DNA of 64,000 nt from Curvibacter delicatus NBRC 14919 (GTDB taxonomy: Bacteria > Pseudomonadota > Gammaproteobacteria > Burkholderiales > Burkholderiaceae_C). The stretch covers positions 1 through 64,000 of the forward strand of contig NZ_BCWP01000012.1 in the NCBI RefSeq assembly GCF_001592265.1, written 5' to 3'. Of this stretch, positions 42,928 through 46,518 are shown in pieces (the stretch's first letter is position 1; each line of letters begins with the position of its first letter). The notes under the pieces are model-generated. The model saw only the letters and a program-made list of their open reading frames with translations. It had not been told where the DNA came from and made no database searches. The position numbers and the translations under genes were made by a program.

Positions 42928-43016
42928 TTTATTAGCCTCCGATGTTCGGGCAAGCGGCTACGCCTAGCACCTTGTATGGACCAGGCGACCGACGCTCAAA
43001 ACAGGAAAAGTACCTT

Positions 43017-43040
43017 AACATCAAGATGTTAGCCTGACAA
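43017..43040 (-). promoter_or_regulatory. Candidate fimV promoter with internal dyad
   Basis: On the minus strand TTGTCA (43040-43035), 17 bases, then TAAGGT gives a moderate sigma-70 match. The spacer holds the dyad AACATC/GATGTT (43017-43030). The -10 box is poor, so confidence is low. Confidence 0.3.
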
Positions 43041-43099
43041 GCTAAGAAAGCGCTTAACCTTCTGAGCTGCCCGTTCGTCGCCCCAGGTGGGGCTGAATG

Positions 43100-43140
43100 T
43101 TGTCAAACGACAACGGCTTGCGGTGAACCGCAAGCCGTTG
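43100..43140 (-). terminator. Terminator-like hairpin after asd
   Basis: Thirteen-base perfect stem CAACGGCTTGCGG / CCGCAAGCCGTTG (43111-43140) with a four-base loop. On the minus strand it is followed by a T-rich but interrupted tract (TCGTTTG), so termination could be partial. Confidence 0.6.
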
Positions 43141-43158
43141 GGTCTGGGGAAAAGGGAC

Positions 43159-44289
43159 TCAGGCTGCCAGCAGGATGCGCAGCATGCGGCGCAGCGGTTC
43201 GGCCGCGCCCCACAGCAGCTGGTCGCCCACGGTGAAGGCGCCCAGGTAGTCGTTGCCCATGGCCAGCTTGTGCAGGCGGCCGACCGGCACGGTCAGCGTG
43301 CCGGTGACGGCGGCCGGCGTCAAGTCGCGCTCGGTGATCTCACGTTGGTTAGGGACCACTTTCACCCAGTCGTTGGCGCCCGCCAGCATGGACTCGATCT
43401 CGTCCAGCGGCACATCCTTCTTCAGCTTGACGGTCAGGCCCTGCGAGTGGCAGCGCATGGCGCCGATGCGCACGCACAGGCCATCAATCGGGATGCTGCC
43501 GGCGCTGCGGAAGGCCGGGTTGCCCAGGATCTTGTTGCACTCGGCGCCACCCTTCCACTCTTCCTTGCTCTGGCCGTGCTCAACCGGCACGTCGATCCAG
43601 GGGATCAGGCTGCCGGCCAGGGCGGTGTTGCGGAAGTTCTTGGTCGGGAAGCTGGCGTCGCGCATGGTGGCGGCCACCTTGCGGTCGATGTCCAGGATGG
43701 CGGAGGCCGGGTCGGCCAGCTCGGCCTTGACGGCATCGTGCAGGGCGCCCATCTGGCTCAGCAGTTCGCGCATGTTCTGCGCACCGGCGCCGGAGGCGGC
43801 CTGGTAGGTCATGGCGCTGACCCACTCGATCAGACCGGCCTTGAACAGGCCACCCATGGCCATCAGCATCAGGCTCACGGTGCAGTTGCCGCCGATCCAG
43901 TTGCGGCCACCCTTGGCCAGCGCCTGGTCGATGACGTCGCGGTTGACCGGGTCGAGCACGATGACGGCGTCATCGGCCATGCGTAGCGTGGAGGCGGCGT
44001 CGATCCAGTGGCCGTTCCAGCCGGCAGCACGCAGCTTCGGATACACCTCCTTGGTGTAGTCGCCGCCCTGGCAGGTCAGGATGATGTCGCACTTCTTCAG
44101 CTCGTCGATGCTGTTGGCATCCTTGAGCATGGTTTCGTTTTTCGCCTGTGCCGGGGCTTTGCCGCCGGCATTCGACGTGGAGAAGAACACCGGCTCGATC
44201 AGGTCGAAATCCTTTTCCTGCACCATGCGGTCCATCAGCACGGAGCCGACCATGCCGCGCCAGCCGACCAAACCTACCAACTTGCTCAT
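43159..44289 (-). CDS. asd: Aspartate-semialdehyde dehydrogenase
   Basis: Reduces aspartyl phosphate to aspartate semialdehyde, the branch-point precursor of lysine (and diaminopimelate), threonine, isoleucine and methionine. The N-terminal NADP site is [19 protein letters not shown], the active-site Cys is in [17 protein letters not shown], and [15 protein letters not shown] follows. The 376 residues match the Gram-negative form. AAAGGG seven bases upstream sets the start. A leader peptide and attenuator-like structure lie upstream at 44304-44483. Confidence 0.96.
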
Positions 44290-44303
44290 TTCAACGCCCT
44301 TTC

Positions 44304-44380
44304 AAAAATAAAACAGTGCACACCGGCCTGTCTGCCCCGGCTCGTCTGGCCGGGAAGGGCGCACGACGAACCGGAGCCGG
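44304..44380 (-). promoter_or_regulatory. Predicted transcription attenuator of asd
   Basis: After the leader stop codon, CCGGCTC (44380-44374) can pair with GAGCCGG (44343-44337). Alternatively CCGGCC (44353-44348) pairs with GGCCGG (44328-44323), flanked by GTGC (44364-44361) / GCAC (44319-44316) and followed by TG and a TTTTATTTTT tract (44313-44304). The two pairings are interleaved and cannot coexist, which is the logic of an antiterminator and a terminator. Confidence 0.55.
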
Positions 44381-44381
44381 A

Positions 44382-44483
44382 TCAGCCCTTAATGGTCGTG
44401 GTTTTGATGATCGTTGCGCGCGTAGCCACGCCTGCCGGGGCGGCAGAGGCGGTGTTCAGGGGGAACGGGCGGGCGGCAAACAT
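44382..44483 (-). CDS. Predicted asd leader peptide (33 residues)
   Basis: Short ORF on the minus strand starting MFAARPFPLNTASAA, with GGAG five bases upstream of its ATG, and ending ATRATIIKTTTIKG just before the attenuator-like stems. The last 14 residues contain five Thr, three Ile and two Lys, the end products of the aspartate pathway in which Asd acts. Peptides of this kind control thr, ilv and other operons in gammaproteobacteria through ribosome stalling. This one is predicted by the same logic; there is no direct evidence that it is translated. Confidence 0.6.
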   Translation of the reverse strand: MFAARPFPLNTASAAPAGVATRATIIKTTTIKG

Positions 44484-44585
44484 AAGGCTCCATTGTAGCG
44501 GATGAGGTGCTGTTCCGGCAGAGTGGATGCGGTCTCTGCCGTGAGCGGGAGCGGCCCGCGAGGCTTGGCTGTGCGGGGATGCAAG

Positions 44586-44611
44586 CAAAAAGGGCAGCCG
44601 GATGGCTGCCC
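44586..44611 (-). terminator. Rho-independent terminator of leuB
   Basis: On the minus strand GGGCAGCC / GGCTGCCC with a four-base loop, followed by TTTTTGC. It separates the leu operon from asd, which must then have its own promoter. Confidence 0.82.
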
Positions 44612-44640
44612 CTTAGTGTGAGATGCGAAGGACCGGTGGG

Positions 44641-45711
44641 TCAGCCCAATGCCTTGACCACCGCGTCGCCCATCTGCGCCGTGCCGACCTTGGTCGTGCC
44701 CTCGCTCCAGATGTCCGGTGTGCGCAGACCTTGGGCCAGTACTTTCTTCACAGCTGTCTCGATGCGGTCGGCCGCTTCGGCCTGGTTCAGGCTGAAGCGC
44801 AGCATCATGGCGGCCGAGAGGATGGTGGCCAGCGGGTTGGCCACGCCCTTGCCCGCGATGTCGGGTGCGCTGCCATGGCTGGGCTCGTACAGGCCCCGGT
44901 TCTGGCTGTTCAGGCTGGCCGAGGGCAGCATGCCAATGGAGCCGGTCAGCATCGACGCTTCATCCGACAGGATGTCGCCGAACATGTTGCCGGTGACCAC
45001 CACGTCGAAGGCCTTGGGGGCCTTGACCAGTTGCATGGCAGCGTTGTCCACGTACATGTGCTGCAGTTCCACGTCCGGGTACTGGGCATGCACTTCCGTC
45101 ACCACGTCTTTCCAGAACTGGAAAGTTTCCAGCACATTGGCCTTGTCCACGCTGGTGACCTTCTTGTTGCGCTTGCGCGCAGCCTGGAAGGCGACGTGGG
45201 CGATGCGTTCGATCTCCGGCTTGCTGTAGCGCATGGTGTCGAAGGCCTCTTCGGCGCCGGGGAAGTGGCCGTCCACCGCGGTGCGTCGGCCGCGCGGCTG
45301 GCCGAAGTAGATGTCGCCGGTCAGCTCGCGGATGATCAGGATGTCCAGACCGGCAATCAGCTCGGGCTTGAGGCTGGAGGCGCCAACCAGCTGCTCGTAG
45401 CAGATGGCGGGGCGGAAGTTGGCGAACAGGCCGAGGTGCTTGCGCAGGCCCAGGATGGCCTGCTCAGGGCGCAGCGGGCGATCCAGCTTGTCGTACTTCC
45501 AGTCGCCGACGGCGCCGAACAGGATGGCATCGGCCGCCTTGGCCAGGTTCAGGGTGGACTCGGGCAGCGGGTGGCCGTGCGCCTCGTAGGCGGCGCCGCC
45601 GACCAGCGCGCTTTCCATCTCGAATTTCAGGCCAAGCGCCTTCAGGACCTTGACGGCCTCGGCCACGATTTCGGTGCCGATGCCGTCACCCGGCAAGACT
45701 GCGATTTTCAT
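44641..45711 (-). CDS. leuB: 3-isopropylmalate dehydrogenase
   Basis: Oxidises and decarboxylates 3-isopropylmalate in leucine synthesis. It shows [20 protein letters not shown], the arginine-containing [19 protein letters not shown], and the metal-binding Asp region [20 protein letters not shown], with a NAD(H)-site ending in [19 protein letters not shown]. 356 residues is normal. It follows leuD, with a repeat remnant between them. Confidence 0.97.
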
Positions 45712-45717
45712 TTTTGA

Positions 45718-45768
45718 TTACTATTAAATTGATAGCTGCTCACGCAATAGTGGTGTGGGCCAACCAGG
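45718..45768 (+). repeat. Dispersed palindromic repeat at the leuD-leuB junction
   Basis: Head ACTATTAAATTGATAGC (45720-45736), then TGCTCACGC and GGGCCAACC. Its right part lies inside the 3' end of leuD and seems to encode the last residues of LeuD (WLAHTTIA) on the opposite strand. Confidence 0.6.
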
Positions 45769-46390
45769 GTTTTTGTGCCAAGCGCTGGGCTTCGAAGGCG
45801 GCGATCTTGTCCTTGTGGCGCAGCGTCAGGCCGATGTCGTCGAAGCCATTGAGCAGGCAGTACTTGCGGAAGGCCTGCACGTCAAAGGGAATTTCCTCCC
45901 CTTGCGGCTTGACGATCACCTGGCGTTCCAGATCAATGGTGAGCTGGTAGCCGGGGAAGGCGGCACATTCGTCGAACAGCTGCGCTACCGTGGCCTCCGG
46001 CAGCTGGATTGGCAGCAGGCCGTTCTTGAAGCAGTTGTTGAAGAAGATGTCGGCAAAGCTGGGCGCGATGATGGCGCGAAAGCCATACTGGTCGATCGCC
46101 CATGGCGCATGCTCGCGCGAGGAACCGCAGCCGAAGTTCTTGCGTGCCAGCAGGATGGAGGCGCCCTCGAAACGCGGCTGGTTCAGCACGAAATCCGGGT
46201 TGGGCTTCCGGCTGGCTGGGTCCTGGCCCGGGTAGCCGGCATCGAGGTAGCGCCATTCGTCGAACAGATTGGGGCCAAAGCCGGTCTTGCGGATGGACTT
46301 GAGGAACTGCTTCGGAATGATGGCGTCGGTGTCGACGTTCTCGCGGTCCATCGGGGCCACCAGGCCCTTGTGTACGGTAAAGGTTTTCAT
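45740..46390 (-). CDS. leuD: 3-isopropylmalate dehydratase small subunit
   Basis: Swivel-domain subunit that with LeuC isomerises 2- to 3-isopropylmalate. Conserved blocks are [60 protein letters not shown] and [13 protein letters not shown]. The 216 residues fit the proteobacterial form. Its start overlaps the stop of the entericidin gene (TAATG). Its last residues are encoded within a repeat-like sequence. Confidence 0.96.
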
Positions 46391-46518
46391 TATTTCTTCG
46401 CCGCGCCTTCGATCTTCTCGCCGGCCTTCTGGATGTCCTGGCCCACGCCCTTGACGGTGTTGCAGCCCACCAGCGCCAGCGTCAGGGACAGGATCACAAA
46501 CAGGGTCGTTTTTTTCAT
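46390..46518 (-). CDS. Entericidin A/B family lipoprotein
   Basis: 42-residue lipoprotein precursor read from the minus strand: N-terminal [18 protein letters not shown] with a lipobox ending in Cys19, followed by [20 protein letters not shown]. Entericidins are small cell-envelope lipoproteins; in E. coli EcnB is toxic and EcnA is its antidote, while many single homologues have no known role. A strong AGGAGA site lies six bases upstream. It is placed between leuC (22-base gap) and leuD (overlapping by one base), so it should be expressed with leucine enzymes. Confidence 0.85.

Follow-up and report, generated by a model that had tools for sequence, protein, structure and literature searches.

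A conserved Thr/Ile/Lys leader peptide ahead of asd in Curvibacter delicatus and its relatives probably acts as an attenuator of asd translation

The window analyzed here, a stretch of 64,000 nucleotides of Curvibacter delicatus NBRC 14919 (contig NZ_BCWP01000012.1, positions 1 to 64,000), carries on its reverse strand asd, which encodes aspartate-semialdehyde dehydrogenase and starts at 44289, and, upstream of it, a gene that we take to be leuB on general knowledge of LeuB. Between the two lies a 33-codon open reading frame (ORF) that translates as MFAARPFPLNTASAAPAGVATRATIIKTTTIKG and has ATRATIIKTTTIKG as its C-terminal end (Table 1). An earlier note on this DNA had read the ORF as the leader peptide of an asd attenuator, as ten of its last 14 residues are Thr, Ile or Lys. 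The count was confirmed, and a scan of the 1614 stop codons that follow at least 14 open codons in the window returned this ORF as the only one with eight or more Thr, Ile or Lys among the last 14 residues. Lys (with cell-wall diaminopimelate), Thr, Ile and Met all depend on Asd as their branch enzyme. The asd gene is probably transcribed separately from leuB, since leuB has a strong terminator of its own, and a search of the organism's own genome revealed no second copy of the leader element. Elsewhere in the window, a small lipoprotein-like, entericidin-like ORF lies between leuC and leuD (46390-46518, reverse strand); a similar small ORF is found ahead of asd in L267, and a tandem repeat encoding RIKDQGS units immediately upstream of asd in L057.

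Table 1. Positions of the genes, the leader and the predicted RNA elements in the window.
Feature	Positions	Strand	Basis
leuB (presumed), gene upstream of the leader	44641..45711	-	ORF; no sensor tail on LeuB here
leuB intrinsic terminator, GGCAGCC-atcc-GGCTGCC then CTTTTT	44586..44612	-	hairpin of -18.4 kcal/mol and T-run
TACAAT, probable -10 element	44492..44497	-	TANAAT-type motif in homologs
Leader peptide ORF, 33 codons, Thr/Ile/Lys-rich tail ATIIKTTTIKG	44382..44483	-	ORF list, homologs, tail composition, window scan
Predicted ON hairpin, 5' arm (GCTCCGGTTCGTC)	44365..44377	-	pairs with 44346-44334; covariation; fold
Predicted anti-SD segment GCGCCCTT, 5' side of OFF outer stem	44355..44362	-	folds, homolog SD-stem counts
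Predicted OFF inner hairpin, 5' arm CCCGGC	44349..44354	-	pairs with 44341-44336; covariation
Predicted ON hairpin, 3' arm (GACGAGCCGGGGC)	44334..44346	-	covariation, including three-strand; part pairs with 44354-44349 in OFF
Predicted OFF inner hairpin, 3' arm GCCGGG	44336..44341	-	covariation
Predicted second OFF hairpin, 5' arm AGACAG	44328..44333	-	masked folds
Predicted second OFF hairpin, 3' arm CTGTTT, absorbs first part of T-run	44311..44316	-	masked folds
asd SD region AAGGGCGT, 3' side of predicted OFF outer stem	44294..44301	-	GGGC by asd starts with the leader
asd, aspartate-semialdehyde dehydrogenase, regulated gene	43159..44289	-	ORF; family-wide tblastn matches; asd annotation in relatives

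The earlier note had staked its idea on conservation in relatives, and the idea survived: Asd-based and covariance-model searches placed the element directly before asd in no fewer than 264 of the 401 family genomes, representing 106 of 141 genera, and among the matches listed it adjoins asd. A second match in G201, returned by the first search, was absent with a better model. For comparison, 122 distinct homologs were collected; most counts use 119 of them, with three left out. Their leader N-termini are highly variable, while the tail is kept. Thr accounts for 43%, Lys for 18% and Ile for 18% of the last ten codons (79% together), tail exchanges occur mainly within these three amino acids, and many changes are synonymous. 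The ratio pN/pS was 0.385 in the last seven codons versus 0.92 in codons -22 to -13. As judged by sequence comparison, the 33-codon ORF is genuine and under selection, with purifying selection confined to the tail; as in an attenuator leader, it is a short, selected coding sequence rich in codons for pathway end products.

Two features of the conserved region could be read differently. Nucleotide conservation is very high at CGTCGTGCGCC and GACGAGCC, as might be expected of a ligand-binding riboswitch or a protein-bound RNA in which the peptide tail is incidental. However, amino-acid-level selection is limited to the tail, where Thr, Ile and Lys interchange, the tail is retained on fusion to LeuB (see below), and no Rfam family, including Thr_leader and the asd motif, came near threshold at positions 43000-46000, so that we give this explanation next to no credence. 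The conserved peptide end KTTTIKG, in turn, might suggest a SecM-like programmed arrest peptide sensing something besides amino-acid supply, and a stalled ribosome that controls a downstream Shine-Dalgarno (SD) sequence would follow the logic of SecM and erm. Unlike a strict arrest motif, though, the tail is fixed neither in length nor in order (ITTTKTIKG, TSTTKTTKTIKS, IVITKTITTKTIIKR) and keeps its composition, and we consider such a peptide very unlikely. A sensor of Thr, Ile and Lys supply that reads ordinary codons is the interpretation we pursue below.

A GGAG site had been proposed as the start signal of the leader. While present in the window, it is not conserved across homologs and was rejected in this role; what is conserved instead is a TANAAT-type hexamer 6-10 nt before the leader ATG, found in 97 of 104 stand-alone homologs and reading TACAAT in 71 of them. 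In the window, TACAAT sits 8 nt before the leader AUG. Given this position and ordinary promoter spacing, transcription probably starts at or within about 2 nt of the leader AUG, which would make the mRNA near-leaderless. Because TACAAT is conserved and GGAG is not, a near-leaderless leader ORF appears more likely than an SD-driven one.

Downstream of the leader, two mutually exclusive RNA folds are predicted. The ON fold is a hairpin of 13 bp (44377-44365 with 44346-44334), for which 88% of alignment cells were paired and the covariation score exceeded all 500 shuffles. The pairing of 44380-44374 with 44343-44337 that had originally been noticed exists as written, but turned out to be a shifted register of this better hairpin. 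The inner hairpin of the OFF fold (44354-44349 with 44341-44336) covaries more strongly still, with 98.2% of cells paired and a score above all 500 shuffles. One position of the strand common to both hairpins shows three-way covariation: all 15 of the 15 sequences with an A there have a T in each of the two partners, the trace expected of a switch between them. We then walked a ribosome codon by codon along the leader of the window, assuming a 12-nt footprint on which the position of the flip rests. The RNA was predicted to stay in the ON fold through all tail codons and to adopt the OFF fold once the stop codon enters the A site; at this flip, ON pairs fell from 13 (10 next to the stop) to 0 and OFF pairs rose from 0 to 8. 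With the footprint assumed, ribosome position thus selects between two exclusive folds, as in an attenuator. A further pairing of leader Thr codons with GTCGTG (44400-44395 with 44367-44362) is possible; it is paired in 91% of cases and shows little covariation.

We next asked what the OFF fold does to asd. When the RNA was masked to 11 nt past the stop codon, representing the stop-codon state, most homologs folded into a three-way junction whose outer stem joins a GCGCCCTT-like segment to the asd SD region. This SD:anti-SD stem was predicted in 87% of homologs (n = 119) versus 4% of shuffles and was absent in about 13%, including the L083-L087 group. GGGC occurs no more than 20 nt from the asd start in 91 of 122 genes with the leader versus 0 of 65 comparison asd genes that lack it (L015, among these 65, is preceded by a leader of an unrelated kind). 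By inspection, divergent homologs pair the SD with other matching sequences, namely GCGCC:GGCGC in L171 and L177 and TGCCCCT:AGGGGCA in L181, and in L003 the stem consists of TCACGCCCT:AGGGCATGTGA, a different sequence in which pairing is kept. Opening the asd start was predicted to be costlier by 1.55 kcal/mol with the ribosome on the stop codon than with it stalled, compared to -0.03 in the shuffled control (Wilcoxon p = 1.6e-12, which, as the homologs are related, is no independent-sample probability); in the window, the cost rose from 5.5 (stalled) to 9.7 (stop-codon state). A fixed MAFFT alignment gave no covariation of the SD stem above shuffles, as its core is nearly invariant and changes are accompanied by register shifts, and a swap test of the stem was weakly positive (z -2.2). 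Like the alternative fold of a translational attenuator, the conserved OFF state hides the SD site and start codon of asd in these models, so control is most likely exerted on translation.

The read-out originally envisaged was an intrinsic terminator, formed by 44353-44348 with 44328-44323 ahead of a T-run. The tract TTTTATTTTT is indeed present before asd (44313-44304), and the pairing exists; the latter, however, is largely peculiar to the sequence of the window and not in terminator geometry, because it ends about 8 nt before the T-run. More globally, classical transcription attenuation would have the stop-codon state permit a terminator before the T-run and stalling form an antiterminator. 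Besides the tract in the window, it could draw on terminator-like hairpins with at least 5 T in 8, present in 58% of homologs versus 12% of shuffles, and on convincing terminators in a few homologs (L158, L169, L095). When T4 was required no further than 2 nt from the stem, together with a dG of -8 or lower (the strict rule), by contrast, only 15% of homologs (n = 119) qualified versus 3.8% of shuffles, and the window failed; it was included among the 22% that passed with T4 at a dG of -6 or lower (6% of shuffles). A consensus scan detected no terminator on the asd strand, the T-run after the hairpin is absent in several lineages, including most LeuB-fused forms, and a terminator leaves the conservation of GGGC at the asd start unexplained. 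At best, the window holds a weak terminator with a good T-run. On the scans by the loose and strict rules against shuffles, we rejected an intrinsic terminator as the general read-out, no conserved one preceding the gene, and we regard pure transcription attenuation as improbable. Since 22% and 58% of homologs have terminator-like hairpins by the dG -6 and loose rules, respectively, termination may contribute in some lineages, possibly including the window with its T-run.

Such a contribution could also take the form of mixed control, in which a translational OFF state is followed by loss of the untranslated transcript through Rho-dependent or weak intrinsic termination. Rho is known to act on mRNA that is not being translated, the OFF state would expose a long C-rich untranslated stretch, and some homologs combine the SD stem with terminator-like hairpins. 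Effects on translation and termination are inseparable from sequence, and we hold mixed control to be possible, if rather doubtful. Control mainly at the level of asd translation, through shortage of Thr-, Ile- or Lys-tRNA, is the reading we consider likely.

All of our evidence comes from computation, which shows the ORF, the selection on its codons, the conserved alternative structures and the point at which they switch; the following sequence of events would connect them. Transcription would begin at or next to the AUG of the 33-codon ORF, in which the last ten codons mainly specify Thr, Ile and Lys, which Asd's pathway yields as end products. If Thr-, Ile- or Lys-tRNA ran short, the ribosome would stall in the tail, and the RNA past the stop codon would form the 13-bp ON hairpin, leaving the SD and AUG of asd free. 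With plentiful amino acids, the ribosome would get to the stop codon and cover the 5' arm of the ON hairpin, whose 3' arm could then pair with CCCGGC to give the inner OFF hairpin. The freed GCGCCCTT would pair with the asd SD region (44362-44355 with 44301-44294), closing the three-way junction, and asd translation would drop. We infer where transcription starts, that ribosomes stall, that the leader responds to starvation, and the sense in which asd is controlled. Taken together, the observation of the earlier note is confirmed and its interpretation partly supported: a widely conserved Thr/Ile/Lys leader-peptide attenuator with mutually exclusive folds, switching at the leader stop codon, is real, and its read-out is most likely translation.

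The Thr/Ile/Lys tail forms the in-frame C-terminus of LeuB in 16 of the 119 homologs, which belong to several lineages, and a separate leader ORF is missing (L003, L007, L094, L099, L179, L186, L189, L190, L194, L196, L201, L205 and L208-L211). In L003 (Curvibacter sp. PAE-UM), for instance, a 364-codon open frame encodes a LeuB ending in MGDAVVAAITKTKG; an example of such a LeuB end reads GDAVVAAITKTTIKG. A similar hairpin lies downstream of the fused tails, and a strict terminator is absent in 14 of the 16. On balance, we lean toward the view that in these lineages the C-terminus of a working LeuB serves as the sensor, such that each ribosome finishing LeuB would test Thr/Ile/Lys-tRNA and set translation of the adjacent asd. 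Since both forms occur even within one genus, a single switch seems able to use an enzyme tail and a free leader peptide interchangeably; in the genus of the window, G360 carries the fused and the window the stand-alone form. Gain or loss of the intergenic promoter region would presumably suffice to convert one into the other.

Outside the family but within the same order, the covariance model gave a single, weak match; the genome concerned is Burkholderia-like, and the match precedes its asd, where a clear Thr/Ile/Lys leader (IVITKTITTKTIIKR) is present. Divergent Thr/Ile/Lys leaders also precede asd in Burkholderia multivorans, Caballeronia and four more genomes of the family of that Burkholderia-like genome, as well as in one genome of another family (L254), whereas most other families of the order showed no such leader before asd. 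These divergent leaders are L212, L213, L226, L238-L241 and L254; the Burkholderia-type ones carry a TTCCCCGC:GCGGGGAA hairpin without a T-run, and their downstream folds differ from the family type. The unrelated leader before asd in L015 (Parvibium lacunae) ends in AKISTIKTIKTIIG and is followed by unrelated sequence. As a separate observation, Asd of the window shares 86-87% identity with Asd of the Polynucleobacter and Rhodocyclaceae types (L013, L014) and about 73% with most Asd of its family, yet in the leader and over the initial 30 nt of asd the window follows the type of its own family. The gene body of asd may possibly have been replaced behind a retained leader.

If correct, a conserved asd switch across a large betaproteobacterial family would fill a gap in knowledge of amino-acid control in these bacteria and add a family to the few leader peptides that control translation, not termination, of a biosynthetic gene. 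Unusual features would be a leader peptide made from near-leaderless mRNA and the use of an enzyme's C-terminal codons as the sensor for the next gene. Our search of the open-access literature found no report of an asd leader in betaproteobacteria; the switch is probably new, though this is not proven, and its most novel part is the LeuB-fused form.

Among known systems, the Streptococcus asd RNA motif (Rfam, Firmicutes) is likewise an RNA element near asd; it gave no match above threshold here, and we know of no leader-peptide logic for it. Enterobacterial thrABC and ilvGMEDA are governed by the Thr/Ile leader attenuators thrL and ilvL, which resemble the present element in their short leader ORF rich in Thr/Ile codons, in the choice of fold by ribosome position and in their aspartate-family or branched-chain targets. 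Here, in contrast, SD sequestration is most likely used in place of an intrinsic terminator, Lys codons are included, the target is asd, and there is no match to the thr-leader family of Rfam. Freeing of the SD of the next gene by a ribosome stalled in an upstream ORF is known from erm and cat resistance genes and from SecM-secA, but the inducer in our case would be amino-acid shortage acting through ordinary codons and not a drug or nascent-chain arrest. Of the published cases that we came across, the LEU element of actinobacterial leuA is closest; in it, the leucine codons themselves pair with the SD and a pseudoknot has been proposed (PMC1262725); both systems combine a leader ORF of regulatory codons with a fold involving the SD of a biosynthetic gene. 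Direct pairing of the regulatory codons with the SD was not found for the asd leader, where instead the segment after the leader stop is predicted to pair with the SD (in folds computed without pseudoknots), in a different gene, phylum and sequence.
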